Positions 1,162-50,279 of a stretch of DNA of 64,000 nt are shown here, piece after piece (position 1 is the stretch's first letter; each line of letters begins with the position of its first letter). The notes under the pieces are model-generated. The model did no database searches. It had not been told where the DNA came from and worked only from the letters and a program-made list of their open reading frames with translations. The translations under genes were made by a program, and so were the position numbers. Origin of the DNA: Collimonas fungivorans (GTDB lineage: Bacteria > Pseudomonadota > Gammaproteobacteria > Burkholderiales > Burkholderiaceae_D); NCBI RefSeq assembly GCF_001584145.1, contig NZ_CP013232.1:3038001-3102000 (forward strand), read 5' to 3'.

Positions 1162-1757
1162 ACCGTTTCTTTCTTTATTTTTATACGACTGTTTTCCCTG
1201 CCGGCGCAATATCCGCCAGCCATCCTGCCACGGGGATCCATGGCAAAATCATTTTCATTACTCTCTGGGATTGGAGAAGTCAGGAATTTCCGCTGTTGCC
1301 CGCTACGATTGCAGCTGCCGAATAATTCTGTAACGCCGGGCAGGAAATTTCACTCCCGGATAAATTTTTTATTTTAGCCATACGCCTTCCTTTTTATCGT
1401 CAATAAATGTCCAGCGAATCACCCTGAACATCCAGGCAAATGAAGCGAGGACGAATTGATTCTGGACCTTAAAATGGAAGACTGCTACTGATTTCGAGCA
1501 ACGGCGATTCGAATGTTTCTTCAGTCACGGTGGGGTGAATTACTGGTATTCAGACACGATATCTCTGTTTTTCGAGGCAAATGCCGAGAGAAGCTATTCA
1601 ATCGAACGGATTTGGGCCGACATGCGTCCAGATGGCACATGATGACGCCTGCAAGACCGCATTTTAGATATGATGGCGAATGCCGATACGGCAATCCTGC
1701 AACACAGCCGACGCCGGCCGCGCAAAAACAGCAAACCACCTATCGGAGCGGCAAAAC
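1162..1757. other. Intergenic region, no supported gene
   Basis: About 600 bases between the divergent SPFH and MFS genes. Only short open frames without ribosome sites or recognisable products are present. It must contain the promoters of both flanking genes, but I could not identify them. Confidence 0.5.
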
Positions 1758-3047
1758 GTGACCAACCTTAAACTCCCTGCCCACGGACAAGCCCGTACCG
1801 CGGCCATGCCTTTCATCATGCTGACCGTCCTGATCGACATGATCTCGATTGGCCTGATCATCCCGGTGCTGCCGGTGCTGGTCGGCAAATTCACCGGCTC
1901 GCAAGCCGACCAGGCATTCTGGTATGGCGCGGTGGCTTTCGCTTTCGGCATCGCCAATTTTTTCGGTTCGCCTATCCTCGGCGCCCTGTCCGACCAGTAC
2001 GGCCGGCGGCCGGTGCTGCTGCTGGGATTTTGCGGGCTGGCGCTGAATTTTTTTGCCACCGCGTTTTCGACTGCGCTGTGGATGCTGATCGTGGTGCGAC
2101 TGGTCGGCGGCGCCATGCAGTCCAACGCGGCGGTATGCAATGCCTACGTGGCCGACATCACCCCGCCGGAGCAACGCGCCAAGCGCTTCGGCATGATAGG
2201 TGCGATGTTCGGCGTGGGTTTTATAGTCGGCCCGGTGATGGGCGGTTTGCTGGGCGCGGTCAATTTGCGCTTGCCGTTCATCGTCGCCGGCAGCCTGGCC
2301 TTGCTGAACCTGATGTACGGTTATTTCGTGCTGCCGGAATCGCTGCCGCGGGAGCGGCGCCGCAGCTTCGGCTGGCGGGCCGCCAATCCGCTGGCCTCGC
2401 TGCAAGCCTTGTCGCGCCTGAAAGCGGTAGGACCGCTAGTTGCCGTGATTGCCTGCAACGGCCTGGCGCAATTCATGTTGTTTACCACCTGGGTGCTGTA
2501 CACCACCTTCAAGTTCGGCTGGGGGCCGCTGGAGAACGGCCAGTCGCTGGCGGCGGTCGGCATCATGTCGGTGATCGTGCAAGGCGTCTTGCTGGGGCCA
2601 TTGCTGAAACGCTTCAGCCCGCAGCGGCTGGCGGTGATCGGGCTGGTCTCCTCCACCGCTGCCTATATCTTGTGGGGCGCCGCCAGCCAGTCGTGGATGA
2701 TGTATGCGGTGATTTTCGCCAATATATTCGGCGCCACGGTGAACGCCTCGATCCAGAGCATCATTTCCGGCGCGGTGGATTCGCACAGCCAGGGCCAGAC
2801 CCTGGGCGCCGTAAGCTCGCTCAACAGCCTGATGGCGGTGATCGCGCCGGTTATCGGTGCGCCGTTGCTGGGTGCAGTGTCGCACCTGCCCAAGGGAGAC
2901 TGGCGGATTGGCGCGCCGTTCTACTTTTGCGCAGTGCTGCAGCTGGCCGCGCTGGTGCTGGCTTTCCTGCATTTCCGGCGCCAGCGCCGCCAACGCGCAG
3001 AGGCCGAGCCTGCGGGTGCTGCGCTGAAGACCGAGGATGTACTGTAA
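1758..3047 (+). CDS. Tet-type (DHA1) major facilitator exporter
   Basis: Twelve-helix MFS protein. The N-terminal helix carries the IGLIIPVLPVL signature of TetA-like proton-coupled drug exporters, and the helix 2-3 loop has motif A, GALSDQYGRRPVLLLG. This fits the TCR/Tet class of drug:H+ antiporters in the inner membrane, but the substrate cannot be told and tetracycline resistance should not be assumed. The frame is open back to 1680. I prefer the GTG at 1758 because GGAG lies about nine bases upstream and the first helix follows shortly after an acceptable N-terminal tail. The next gene runs toward it, with only three bases between the stop codons. Confidence 0.85.
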   Translation: MTNLKLPAHGQARTAAMPFIMLTVLIDMISIGLIIPVLPVLVGKFTGSQADQAFWYGAVAFAFGIANFFGSPILGALSDQYGRRPVLLLGFCGLALNFFATAFSTALWMLIVVRLVGGAMQSNAAVCNAYVADITPPEQRAKRFGMIGAMFGVGFIVGPVMGGLLGAVNLRLPFIVAGSLALLNLMYGYFVLPESLPRERRRSFGWRAANPLASLQALSRLKAVGPLVAVIACNGLAQFMLFTTWVLYTTFKFGWGPLENGQSLAAVGIMSVIVQGVLLGPLLKRFSPQRLAVIGLVSSTAAYILWGAASQSWMMYAVIFANIFGATVNASIQSIISGAVDSHSQGQTLGAVSSLNSLMAVIAPVIGAPLLGAVSHLPKGDWRIGAPFYFCAVLQLAALVLAFLHFRRQRRQRAEAEPAGAALKTEDVL

Positions 3048-3050
3048 TTT

Positions 3051-4205
3051 TCAGGCGGCGGCGGGAACCCGCAATGACGAACCATGCTCCGGCGCACGTG
3101 CGGAAAGACGGCTGAGCGGGATCTCCACCCAGCGATAGAAAATCGCGCCGGCGGCAAGGCTGGCGGCCCAGGCCAGCACCATGCCGCCCGCCTGCAGCAG
3201 CGGCCGCGCCGGCACGAACTTGGCGAACGCCGCATTCACGACCAGGCAGACCGGGAAATGCACCAGGAAGATCGAGTAGGAAATCCGGCCGAATGACCGT
3301 ATCCAGGCAAAACGCTGGCGTGACAGCAGTACGCCGCGCCGGCTCACCAGCACCAGCGCACAGGCCACCAGCAAGGCGACGGCGATGCGGCTGCGGAAAT
3401 CGATCGCCAATGCATACAAGGTCGGCAACAAAATCGCCGCCAGCAGCAGCGCCACCACAGCTGGCCGCCGGCCCAGGTCGCGCGCCCACCAGGCAATCAC
3501 GCCCAGGCCATAGCTGCCGAAGAAATACGGCGCCCAGGCGTCCCAGGCGGCATCGCGGTTGAAATAGAACAGCGAGGCGCTGACGCCGGCCACCACCAGC
3601 AACGGCGCCAGCCATGGCATGGCGCGCCGTCTGGCCAGGCCTCCGGTCAGCCATAGCAGCATGGTCAGCAACGCATACAGCTGGAAATCGATGGCGACGT
3701 ACCAGGCGCCGGCCGAGATCGATTCGTAACCTAATATGGAGTGCAGCAACAAGGCGTGGGCGGCCAGTTGCATGGCCGTCGGCATGGCGGAAATGGAGTA
3801 ATGTGTCATCCACAGCGCGGCCCAGGCAGAGGCGCCTATCGCCAGCACGGTCGCCACCAGGAACGGCGGCACCAGCTTCATGTAGCGCCGCCACAAGACA
3901 CGCAGCGGATCGGAAACGGTGGAAACGCCCTGCGGCGACAAGGACTTGGCAGCCAGGAAGCCGCCGACCACCAGGAATACCTGCACCGCGATGCGGGCGT
4001 AAGCATCCAGCCAGTCGATCAGAACCGGCGCCACGGGACGCACATGGTCAGCCATCGGCCCGTAGAACGCCAGATGGTGCAAGACAATCAGTTGTGCCGC
4101 AATGACCTTGAGCAGGTCGATAAAGCCGAATTGGAAACTGGAACTACGGTCTGGTGCTTTGGATGAGCTTGATAGCAGCGGTGAAACGCTCATTGTTACA
4201 TCCAT
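3051..4205 (-). CDS. Acyltransferase family 3 membrane protein
   Basis: 384 residues with about ten predicted helices. The opening GFIDLLKVIAAQLIVLHHLAFYG matches the start of the Acyltransferase_3 fold, where the His after the first helix is the expected catalytic residue. Family members (OafA, NodX and relatives) transfer acetyl or other acyl groups to sugars of lipopolysaccharide, exopolysaccharide or peptidoglycan in the inner membrane. The substrate is unknown here because no polysaccharide genes are nearby. Two in-frame ATG codons (4205 and 4193) are possible starts and neither has a good ribosome site. It converges with the MFS exporter. Confidence 0.85.
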   Translation of the reverse strand: MDVTMSVSPLLSSSSKAPDRSSSFQFGFIDLLKVIAAQLIVLHHLAFYGPMADHVRPVAPVLIDWLDAYARIAVQVFLVVGGFLAAKSLSPQGVSTVSDPLRVLWRRYMKLVPPFLVATVLAIGASAWAALWMTHYSISAMPTAMQLAAHALLLHSILGYESISAGAWYVAIDFQLYALLTMLLWLTGGLARRRAMPWLAPLLVVAGVSASLFYFNRDAAWDAWAPYFFGSYGLGVIAWWARDLGRRPAVVALLLAAILLPTLYALAIDFRSRIAVALLVACALVLVSRRGVLLSRQRFAWIRSFGRISYSIFLVHFPVCLVVNAAFAKFVPARPLLQAGGMVLAWAASLAAGAIFYRWVEIPLSRLSARAPEHGSSLRVPAAA

Positions 4206-4307
4206 GTTAAAAAAGATGCCAATGATAAAGATTCAAACGCGCTTGTCCAGCAGAATAATGTTTTGTAACATTTCCCACATTCAACAAAATAATTTGTCGA
4301 AACGATA

Positions 4308-5674
<1,367 letters not shown>

Positions 5675-14441: not shown

Positions 14442-14623
14442 CAGATAGATTTGTGGTGAATAAAATGCATGGCATTGTATAAATGACACATGCGTTTCGG
14501 TTTTAACATTGCTTAACATGCCATCGCTAGCCATCCATTTTACGAGCATTCCGAAAAACACGTATGACGCGCCGGTGGCCGTAACCGCCAGGGCCGGCGG
14601 ATAAATTAACTGGATAACAACAA

Positions 14624-14666: not shown

Positions 14667-15992
14667 CTAGGAGCCGGGCCATGAGATTTGTTCAAATAAC
14701 CGATGCAAACGCTTGCCGCGTTGCGGGTTCACCATCTGCGCATACGAGACCCGGCCGGCCAGGAATTGCCGGTAGTTGTCTCGTCCCTCCCGGTTCTGCG
14801 ACGCCGGGCCGTGGCGTATGCAGTTTGTCAGCGCGGCCTTCAGCTTGTCGAATTCCTGGCGCGGGATATTGGGATGGCGGTTAACCACGATGCCGGTCAC
14901 CTGCTGCCGGACGCCGCTGCGCATCATCCTGGTCTTCCTGGCGTTGACAGCAAAACCCTCTTCCAATGCAATTGCCGCCACTTGCACATGGAAACGGTCC
15001 ATCGCCCGTTCCAGCCCGCTCTCTCCGGAAAACACCAGGTCGTCGGCGTAGCGGCTGTAACGGGCATCAAGCGCCGTCGCCAGAGCCTGCAAGCGCATGT
15101 CCAGCCGGTAAGCGCATAAATTGGCAAGCGCCGGCGAGCATGGAGAGCCTTGCGGCAGATGGCGTGTGCGCAAGGCCTGGCGTTCTTGCCAAGGAATTTT
15201 TTGACCCGGCTGATTCAGCACGTTGCCCGGGGTCCGGTATGTGCACAGGCGGGAAAGCAAACCGGCCACTTTAGGCGGATAACCAAGCTTTATAAATAAT
15301 GCGTGGACCCTGGCCGCCGGAATGCTTGGAAAAAAATCCTTCAGGTCCATCCGTATCACCACACGCTTGCCGGCATGCAGCGCCGCGTGCGTCACACATG
15401 AATGGCCGCGGCGGAAGCCGTGCGCCGCCTGGTGCAGCGGGATCCGGTCGAGCAAGCCGCGCAGTACCTGGGTTTGCATGGTGCGCAGGTGCGGCTTGGG
15501 AATTTCGATCAAGCGCAGCCCGCCGCTGCGTTTTGCTATCCAGCGATGGTGGTAATGCTGCAGGGCTGTCGTCGTCGCCTGACTGTTACGCCATTGGTCG
15601 GCGAACCAGTCCAGCTCGGACGGCGTTACTTTCAGCCATTGCGCCAGATCGGCAGCGGTGGCAAGCACGGGCAGCGCCAATGCGGACAACCACGCCGGCG
15701 GCTCAGCGGCAACAGGCGGGTCGAGACAAAAATGCCGGACCTGCGGCGGCTCGCTGTCCAGCCATGCGTCGGCAAACCCCTCGTGGGCCAGGATCAGCGC
15801 AGCCAGCTCGGTGCGGCCATGGCTATGCAGCTGTTCTCCGGTCTGTTTGTGGATGGCCCGGCACAATGAAGGAATCCAGCGCCATTTCTTGCCCAGCGCC
15901 CACCTGGCACCTTGCAGCATGGCGTCAAGACTCGCTTCGCGCGCGAGGAAGGTGTCTGCCAGGGCTAAAGCGACGAAAGTTTTTGGATTCAT
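14667..15992 (-). CDS. Retron-type reverse transcriptase, myxobacterial-like with long N-terminal domain
   Basis: 441 residues from ATG at 15992. Residues 1-140 are an extension ending in LAQWLKVTPSELDWFAD. RT motifs follow: KRSGGLRLIEIPKP (155-167), AAHGFRRGHSCVTHAALH (189-206, the retron-specific region, HAALH where the family has NAxxH), RMDLKDFFPS with catalytic Asp216, LPQGSPCSPALANL (279-292), and YADD at 315-318. VTG at 365-367 is the retron hallmark that recognises its own msr RNA. The long N-terminal region and total length resemble the Mx162/Mx65 RTs of myxobacteria more than Ec86. It should copy the msd part of the adjacent RNA into branched msDNA. The frame is open back to a TTG at 16028, but that stretch is repeat a2 of the RNA. 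No effector gene is adjacent. Confidence 0.92.
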   Translation of the reverse strand: MNPKTFVALALADTFLAREASLDAMLQGARWALGKKWRWIPSLCRAIHKQTGEQLHSHGRTELAALILAHEGFADAWLDSEPPQVRHFCLDPPVAAEPPAWLSALALPVLATAADLAQWLKVTPSELDWFADQWRNSQATTTALQHYHHRWIAKRSGGLRLIEIPKPHLRTMQTQVLRGLLDRIPLHQAAHGFRRGHSCVTHAALHAGKRVVIRMDLKDFFPSIPAARVHALFIKLGYPPKVAGLLSRLCTYRTPGNVLNQPGQKIPWQERQALRTRHLPQGSPCSPALANLCAYRLDMRLQALATALDARYSRYADDLVFSGESGLERAMDRFHVQVAAIALEEGFAVNARKTRMMRSGVRQQVTGIVVNRHPNIPRQEFDKLKAALTNCIRHGPASQNREGRDNYRQFLAGRVSYAQMVNPQRGKRLHRLFEQISWPGS

Positions 15993-16009
15993 CAGGTTAA
16001 GGTAAACGA

Positions 16010-16176
16010 GGCGGCGGAGAGCCTTCAACCAGTCCCGTCATGCGTGAGCATATCTGCACCGTGGTGCAGCGCCGCTCATGCGTTGCATTGCCAAGCCAAA
16101 ATATCCCGCGGGGTAGCCCCGCAGAGGCGTTCCATTACACGAGGTAACAGCGCGCCGGCTTGAAGGGTCCGCCGCC
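16010..16176 (-). ncRNA. Retron msr-msd RNA with a1/a2 repeats
   Basis: Immediately upstream of the RT on the same strand. Repeat a1 (16160..16176, GGCGGCGGACCCTTCAA) pairs with a2 (16010..16028, TTGAAGGCTCTCCGCCGCC): nine pairs, a 1x3 internal loop, then seven pairs. The base just after a1 is G in CAAGCC, matching the AGC context of the branching guanosine in known retrons. Inside, the msr part has a GTTAC/GTAAT hairpin and GCGGGG-CTA-CCCCGC (16108..16122). The msd part has one long hairpin, 16042..16081, GCATGAGC and CTGCACC pairing with GGTGCAG and GCTCACGC. About 167 nt, a normal retron size. Exact msr/msd boundaries are inferred. Confidence 0.85.
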
Positions 16177-16181
16177 CGGCC

Positions 16182-16210
16182 ACACTATGTGAATATAGTA
16201 GAAGTGTCAA
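16182..16210 (-). promoter_or_regulatory. Sigma-70 promoter of the retron
   Basis: Minus strand TTGACA (16205..16210), a 17-base spacer, then TAGTGT (16182..16187). The -35 is perfect and the -10 weak. The expected start, about seven bases downstream, falls on the first G of repeat a1 at 16176, which supports both calls. Confidence 0.7.
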
Positions 16211-16330
16211 CTGGATTTCCCCGCGCCGGCGGCCCGCCATCCTTGCCTGGGCAAGCTATGATTTCAACTATCTGTCGGTGCCGGCGCAGATTATTGTTAG
16301 AATCATACCTACTCAATTTTTTAGCTACTC

Positions 16331-50012: not shown

Positions 50013-50279
50013 TTACCCTTGCGAAGCTGTAGGTATACTGGAAATCAAAGCACAACCGCAAGCGCTGTGGTGTCCGTGCAATGCAACCTGGCGACCATCG
50101 ATAGTAAATGTCGGTGAACCCTCAATGATCGGATTTATGCCGTGTCCGGGCATTGGGCAAGTTACCATATCCCCAACGCGGGCAATGCCCAAACCGTGGA
50201 TGAGATGGATCGACGATGCGCTGATGACGACGCCCCCATGTGTGGTTTTGTCGCCCAAGCGAATGATAGAAAGCGCCAT
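50013..50279 (-). CDS. PAAR-domain T6SS spike-tip protein
   Basis: 88 residues. LGDKTTHGGVVISAS, ARVGDMVTCPMPGHG and GRQVALHGHHSACGCALIS carry the conserved metal-binding His and Cys of a single PAAR domain. It sharpens the tip of the VgrG trimer and helps load effectors. It carries no toxin extension, so the effector is the separate upstream gene. Ten bases lie between the immunity gene stop and its ATG. Confidence 0.9.
   Translation of the reverse strand: MALSIIRLGDKTTHGGVVISASSIHLIHGLGIARVGDMVTCPMPGHGINPIIEGSPTFTIDGRQVALHGHHSACGCALISSIPTASQG

Follow-up and report, generated by a model that had tools for sequence, protein, structure and literature searches.

A retron is a compact element whose reverse transcriptase (RT) makes a very short DNA from the element's own RNA. 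The window, by which we mean the whole stretch of 64,000 nucleotides that was analysed from the soil bacterium Collimonas fungivorans, very probably carries a genuine retron that makes its own msDNA; this level of confidence covers the retron and the msDNA, and not their function. The complete stand-alone retron in a betaproteobacterium recognized in the initial annotation was confirmed, and the analysis adds a ncRNA family that is shown by covariation, has no match in Rfam 15 and is tied to one group of RTs (Table 1).

Table 1. Features of the retron unit (positions of the window)
Feature	Position	Strand	Basis or remark
Retron reverse transcriptase, 441 aa	14667..15992	-	ATG at 15992, stop ends at 14667; RVT_1; PADLOC; AlphaFold
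All-helical N-terminal region, residues 1-76	15765..15992	-	AlphaFold model
ncRNA (msr-msd), a1 through a2	16010..16176	-	Covariance model R1, covariation
a1 arm	16160..16176	-	9+7 pairs with a2
a2 arm	16010..16028	-	17 nt separate a2 from the RT ATG
Predicted 2'-5' branch guanosine	16159	-	Base directly after a1; putative branching
msr hairpin 1	16126..16156	-	Folding and A1 pairing
msr hairpin 2, GGGG-cTA-CCCC	16105..16125	-	A1 and A4 alignments
msd template region	16029..16104	-	Predicted msDNA of up to ~76 nt, start opposite 16029; putative end point
msd hairpin, outer and inner stem	16042..16081	-	A4 pairing
-35 box TTGACA of the ncRNA promoter	16205..16210	-	Pattern recurs in homologues
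-10 box TAGTGT, 5 nt ahead of a1	16182..16187	-	Pattern recurs; absent from strict scan

Anatomy of the RT gene and of the ncRNA

RVT_1 (residues 152-359, E 6.7e-25) was the only Pfam domain found in the RT, and the YADD, VTG and HGFRRG...HAALH motifs previously claimed for this protein were all read in its translation. Residues Y315, D317, D318, T366 and G367 showed no variation across the 26 rows of RT alignment A3, and LAG replaces VTG in two Burkholderia rows of alignment A2 (28 rows). The AlphaFold model of the RT had a mean pLDDT of 89. Purifying selection acts on both parts of the protein, for which dN/dS values of 0.07 to 0.35 were obtained (nine pairs, one of them close to saturation with a dS of ~1.8). 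The flanking genes encode GTP cyclohydrolase II (ribA) and PqiA according to Pfam, as had been proposed.

The elements described upstream of the RT in the initial annotation were likewise borne out, namely the a1/a2 pairing of nine plus seven, the G after CAA (G16159), two msr hairpins, the msd hairpin and the spacing between a2 and the ATG. The upstream TTGACA promoter was also found, its boxes TTGACA and TAGTGT lying 17 nt apart. A promoter-type pattern, drawn up after the sequences had been seen, was present 3-8 nt before a1 in 22 of 30 homologues (the window counted), versus 0.45% of random stretches from the same loci. A strict consensus promoter scan listed none at the ncRNA, and TAGTGT matches TATAAT at three of six positions. 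The 226-nt leader folded better than 198 of 200 shuffled sequences (z -2.9), and the folding of the predicted msDNA was no better than that of shuffles (z -0.67). The ncRNA had no Rfam 15 match at the gathering threshold, and none was obtained even at E<=1 on 15950..16330. Elsewhere in the window, at 50108..50178 (minus strand), Rfam reported the Pseudomonas sRNA P10 (RF01668) with 38.3 bits, against a gathering threshold of 37.

Covariation in the ncRNA

We took 30 loci of the first RT group (L001, L010-L012, L019-L044), five of which are on the same contigs as loci of the named relatives. The ncRNA was located at most 330 nt upstream of the RT in 29 of the 30 fetched loci, and 3.3 kb upstream in L021, where it was found in the longer stretch L087. 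In L087 (genome G146, 1675..5000), the ncRNA is separated from the RT by genes encoding a P-type ATPase and an AcrB-family fragment. Of the 33 loci offered, all but L021 entered alignment A1 (32 rows), and the structure tested on it was a hand extension of the RNAalifold structure.

In A1, 95.4% of cells paired, versus 88.7% in shuffled alignments and 38.7-48.5% when the partners were slid. Both sides had changed in 24 of the 47 pairs, and none of 500 shuffles equalled the covariation score; four of the five measures were reached by 0/500 shuffles, the exception being the count of further pair types, which 50/500 reached. The two a1/a2 helices paired in 98.7 and 99.6% of cells, and the G directly after a1 was invariant in all 32 rows. 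The weakest parts were helix 4, the inner helix of msr hairpin 1 (85.9%), and helix 7 (87.5%), one pair of which fails in 20 of the 32 rows.

Covariance model R1, built from A1, was run on 19 and then on 13 sources. It gave the window ncRNA 169 bits, the window copy being among the sequences from which the model was built. The wider alignment A4 consisted of 30 loci, all matched by R1 at E<=0.001; 13 of these had not been used in model building (weakest E 6e-4), members outside A1 having been picked because they had shown R1 matches. Here, 41 of 47 pairs had changed on both sides and no measure was reached by 500 shuffles, with a covariation score of 0.540 versus 0.151 +- 0.010 for shuffled and 0.07-0.10 for slid alignments; A4 was fitted to the structure and hence leans toward it, and A1 was not so fitted. 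The a1/a2 helices paired in 97.0 and 98.6% of A4 cells, all six pairs of the msd inner stem had changed on both sides, and the outer stem paired in 88.3% of cells. Loss of a1/a2 covariation among homologues had been named as an observation that would speak against a retron; covariation was instead present in both A1 and A4, above the controls in every measure but the one excepted for A1. The structure of the ncRNA is not due to chance and has been kept by evolution in the relatives of the window retron.

Search for an effector

No effector gene stands beside the unit, as had been stated in the initial annotation. No ORF of at least 90 aa lies wholly inside the gaps to ribA and pqiA, although these gaps do contain frames of 46-60 codons (stop counted), and nine neighbouring proteins in the window matched no PADLOC model. 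Recurrent neighbours were sought among all stop-to-stop frames of 32 loci (L007 and L098 being one contig). Among frames of at least 60 codons within ~5 kb, no non-RT frame recurred in more than three other loci; a smaller, fast-changing or distant effector would escape this search. With RVT_1 as the only domain in the RT and no recurrent neighbour, the adjacent or fused effector of a tripartite retron was not found.

An effector encoded antisense to the RT was considered and rejected. The 232-codon antisense frame of the window is not kept in 25 relatives: their longest stretches of this frame have 75-244 codons, and that of L006 alone (codons 7-221) spans roughly the same region. A different antisense frame runs open from end to end in five of 26 RTs (L024, L026, L030, L006 and L009) but has only 155 codons in the window. 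We read the long open antisense frame as an effect of high G+C. As far as examined, no effector was found at the locus or in its relatives.

The effector might instead act in trans, its gene lying at another chromosomal site and its product being bound by the RT-msDNA particle, and the unit would then belong to a tripartite retron. This arrangement would be consistent with the description of retron defence, in parts of PMC8989520 and PMC12262390, as an RT, an RT-DNA and an accessory protein. However, no non-RT frame recurred widely in the loci compared, and separation of the effector from the RT in every lineage would be unusual. We consider such a distant effector unlikely, at about one chance in a few.

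Distribution and inheritance

The nearest named relative was Collimonas sp. OK412 (80% identity). The search of the family matched 50 of 392 genomes at E<=1e-60; 38 of them had a long match at >=54% identity (one spanning residues 81-439 only), two held C-terminal pieces and ten held a second RT group alone (36-43% identity). Seven genomes of genus g12, of ~7.4-7.8 Mb (G155, G185, G121, G195, G146, G165 and G205), carry both the retron RT and the second RT, the latter as an open frame of ~650 aa with ~42% identity, and six further genomes of the family search also hold both. RTs similar to the second RT elsewhere (L118 and L127) score as PADLOC RT_XIII.

Five of the 15 Collimonas genomes had some match, which was the retron RT in four (G000, G004, G008 and G011) and other RTs in the fifth. 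With 150 candidates scored per genome, the ncRNA was found in the same four genomes as the RT, each with one copy of the unit. The comparison of ribA-pqiA intergenic regions advocated in the initial annotation was carried out: the unit adjoins pqiA in these four of the 15 Collimonas genomes, with ribA on the other flank in the window, L002 and L099, and, judging by its sequence, at L010; in G005 the site is empty and the flanks are 98% (RibA) and 99% (PqiA) identical. By comparison with this empty site, the unit is bounded by GCCnGG motifs at 14587..14592 and 16245..16250, which perhaps served as microhomology in its loss. A mobile element with clear ends was rejected, the comparison revealing GCCnGG only and no clear target duplication.

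On a tree of the pqiA region, the presence of the unit requires three changes, a number equalled by shuffled labels in 143 of 500 cases, and loss or repeated gain must therefore have occurred. In the RT of L010 (G004), 90% identical to that of the window, YADD is followed within a few residues by an in-frame TGA, which represents a genuine inactivation or a sequencing error. Since this copy is interrupted and G005 lacks the unit, the unit is dispensable.

Outside the family, the order search (399 genomes) yielded four near full-length and three shorter matches, the class search three of 369 genomes (one with an in-frame TAG) and the phylum search two of 398. R1 matches were present upstream of the RT in all these order, class and phylum finds. 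The neighbourhoods of the unit differ from genus to genus. Among plasmids, 54 records matched, three of them over 80% of the query, all from Burkholderia (49-55% identity); the matches to 11 phage records all covered 80% of the query or less. On a Tsukamurella plasmid (L109), an RT matching RT_other with 535 bits is accompanied by an a1/a2-like pairing, seen by eye, upstream of 3716; R1 does not match this locus, and an actinobacterial branch of the retron family may exist.

This patchy distribution, with three changes on the Collimonas tree and absence from G005, would fit a selfish or housekeeping element that makes msDNA without any role in defence and is kept at low cost, as would the lack of a PADLOC defence match among the nine surrounding proteins. 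However, the protein is under purifying selection and the RNA structure is conserved, and the four Collimonas genomes hold the unit once each, unlike a proliferating element. We judge an msDNA with no defensive role to be as unlikely as an effector in trans.

Classification of the RT

In the PADLOC library, the best matches of the window RT were RT_other (PDLC02949; 483 bits) and RT_outgroup (PDLC03740; 457 bits), both near full length and including the N-terminal region, followed by RT_XIII (352 bits) and then by other retron types; the likeness to the first two is one of profile alone. All 28 rows of A2 matched RT_other and RT_outgroup, with the same leading models as the window.

The initial annotation had assigned the enzyme to the myxobacterial RT type. 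For the comparison we used, in both the PADLOC scan and the tree, a single provisional sequence that we take to be the Mx162 RT. This sequence matched RT_XIII with 510 bits (residues 48-480 of 485) and RT_other with 295 bits. In the RT tree (42 rows, five of the 45 loci offered having given no usable frame), the window RT fell within a group of 22 rows (support 100/99) and the provisional Mx162 RT within another, of 13 rows (99/96); four rows had long branches and are of unsure placement. RT_XIII led in all three members of the 13-row group scanned with PADLOC (L118, L127 and the provisional Mx162). R1 matched all 22 rows of the window's group (E<=0.001) and none of 12 loci of the sister group at E<=0.01 (L129 reached 0.34).

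An extended RT N-terminus is described for the Mx162 and Sa163 type in part of PMC6868368, and RT_XIII is the third-best model for the window RT. However, the N-terminal regions of the two groups appear unrelated (hhalign probability 0.4%). The extension of the window RT ahead of the retron-RT core was also shorter than the 140 residues first assigned to it, with ~100-105 residues, of which 1-76 form the helical part. Three divergent rows of the 22-row group have N-termini that match this region weakly (28%). The predicted branch context also differs, being AAGC in the window, against the CAGC reported for Mx162 and Sa163 in PMC6868368, and none of the five four-base contexts given in the relevant part of that paper is AAGC.

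With a different PADLOC leader, a separate supported tree group and an unrelated N-terminal region, measured against one provisional myxobacterial sequence, the assignment to the myxobacterial type was not upheld. We place the window RT, by sequence comparison, in the group matching RT_other and RT_outgroup, outside that of Mx162, and the long N-terminus that it shares with myxobacterial RTs appears to be a likeness in length only. The long N-terminus, the VTG motif and the missing effector gene could be taken as signs of a transferred Mx162-type retron, but the two supported groups differ and their N-termini are non-homologous, so transfer from myxobacteria is not indicated and we regard it as very improbable.

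The RT was not of the group II or DGR type, as the initial annotation required of a retron. In addition to the PADLOC scores of up to 483 bits, the NCBIfam retron models gave 184-200 bits, which is below their own curated cut-offs, versus 60 bits for group II. The 18 best solved matches of the AlphaFold model were all retron RTs, followed by group II, DRT and DGR enzymes, and the best solved folds were the RT cores of Retron-Eco1 (Ec86) and Retron-Eco2 (Ec67), with a TM of 0.81-0.84 by target length and a sequence E of 2.7e-30 to the window RT for Ec86. A group II or DGR RT was rejected on the profile scores and solved-fold matches. That the enzyme is an unclassified, group II-like or DGR-like RT behind an unrelated structured leader draws on general RT similarity and nothing further, and is exceedingly improbable given that the NCBIfam retron models, though under their own cut-offs, exceed group II by 123-140 bits and that a1/a2 and the hairpins co-vary.

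Proposed mechanism and function

From this anatomy and the retron mechanism set out in parts of PMC6868368 and PMC8989520, we infer the synthesis, branching, end points and function of the msDNA as follows. A sigma-70-type promoter would drive the ncRNA and then the RT, as a two-part retron. The a1/a2 stem would present G16159 to the RT, which would prime DNA synthesis from the 2'-OH of this residue, opposite base 16029, and copying would run through the msd hairpin until close to msr hairpin 2. The product would be a branched msDNA of ~65-76 nt, remaining bound to the RT. Production of msDNA by the unit is likely.

With regard to function, we tentatively favour a sensing particle that works on its own, the N-terminal helices of the RT replacing a separate effector, probably in phage defence, though we hold this as a possibility well short of an even chance. 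The role given to the N-terminal region is a guess, since no solved structure resembles it: residues 1-80, folded alone (pLDDT 72), had no PDB match below E 2. The corresponding view of the lineage, to which we give slightly less credence, is that these two-part retrons, which occur sporadically in Burkholderiales and in other Pseudomonadota, lost or never had an effector. The RT, the lineage-specific ncRNA and the N-terminal helices would then form the whole unit, and either the RT particle would respond by itself or the msDNA would have a task distinct from the guarding of a toxin.

Among characterized retrons, an accessory protein is present in Eco1 and a fused topoisomerase-primase domain in Eco2, according to the portion of PMC8989520 that covers them; the window retron has neither, and has instead its N-terminal helical region. 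Retron-Bth1 makes RT-DNA and has no obvious effector, as described in part of PMC12548924, and it resembles the window retron in this description rather than in sequence. However, it belongs to an extrachromosomal element of Bacillus thuringiensis and its RT is interrupted by a group II intron. The effector-less trait is not new, because the apparent absence of nearby effectors from other retrons was already remarked on in a passage of PMC8867640. The portions of PMC11953036 and PMC8565338 that were available hold nothing on this retron. No account of it was found in the open-licence PMC literature, and an earlier description of the lineage is possible. The RT is already covered by a PADLOC profile, and retrons of this kind are known; we consider the novelty to be moderate.

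On the current view, retrons guard an effector. A lineage whose ncRNA is strongly conserved, and beside which no effector gene is seen, offers a direct test of this guard model, and also of the purpose of msDNA, a question dating from the myxobacterial retrons. Compact two-part retrons are, in addition, useful for DNA production.
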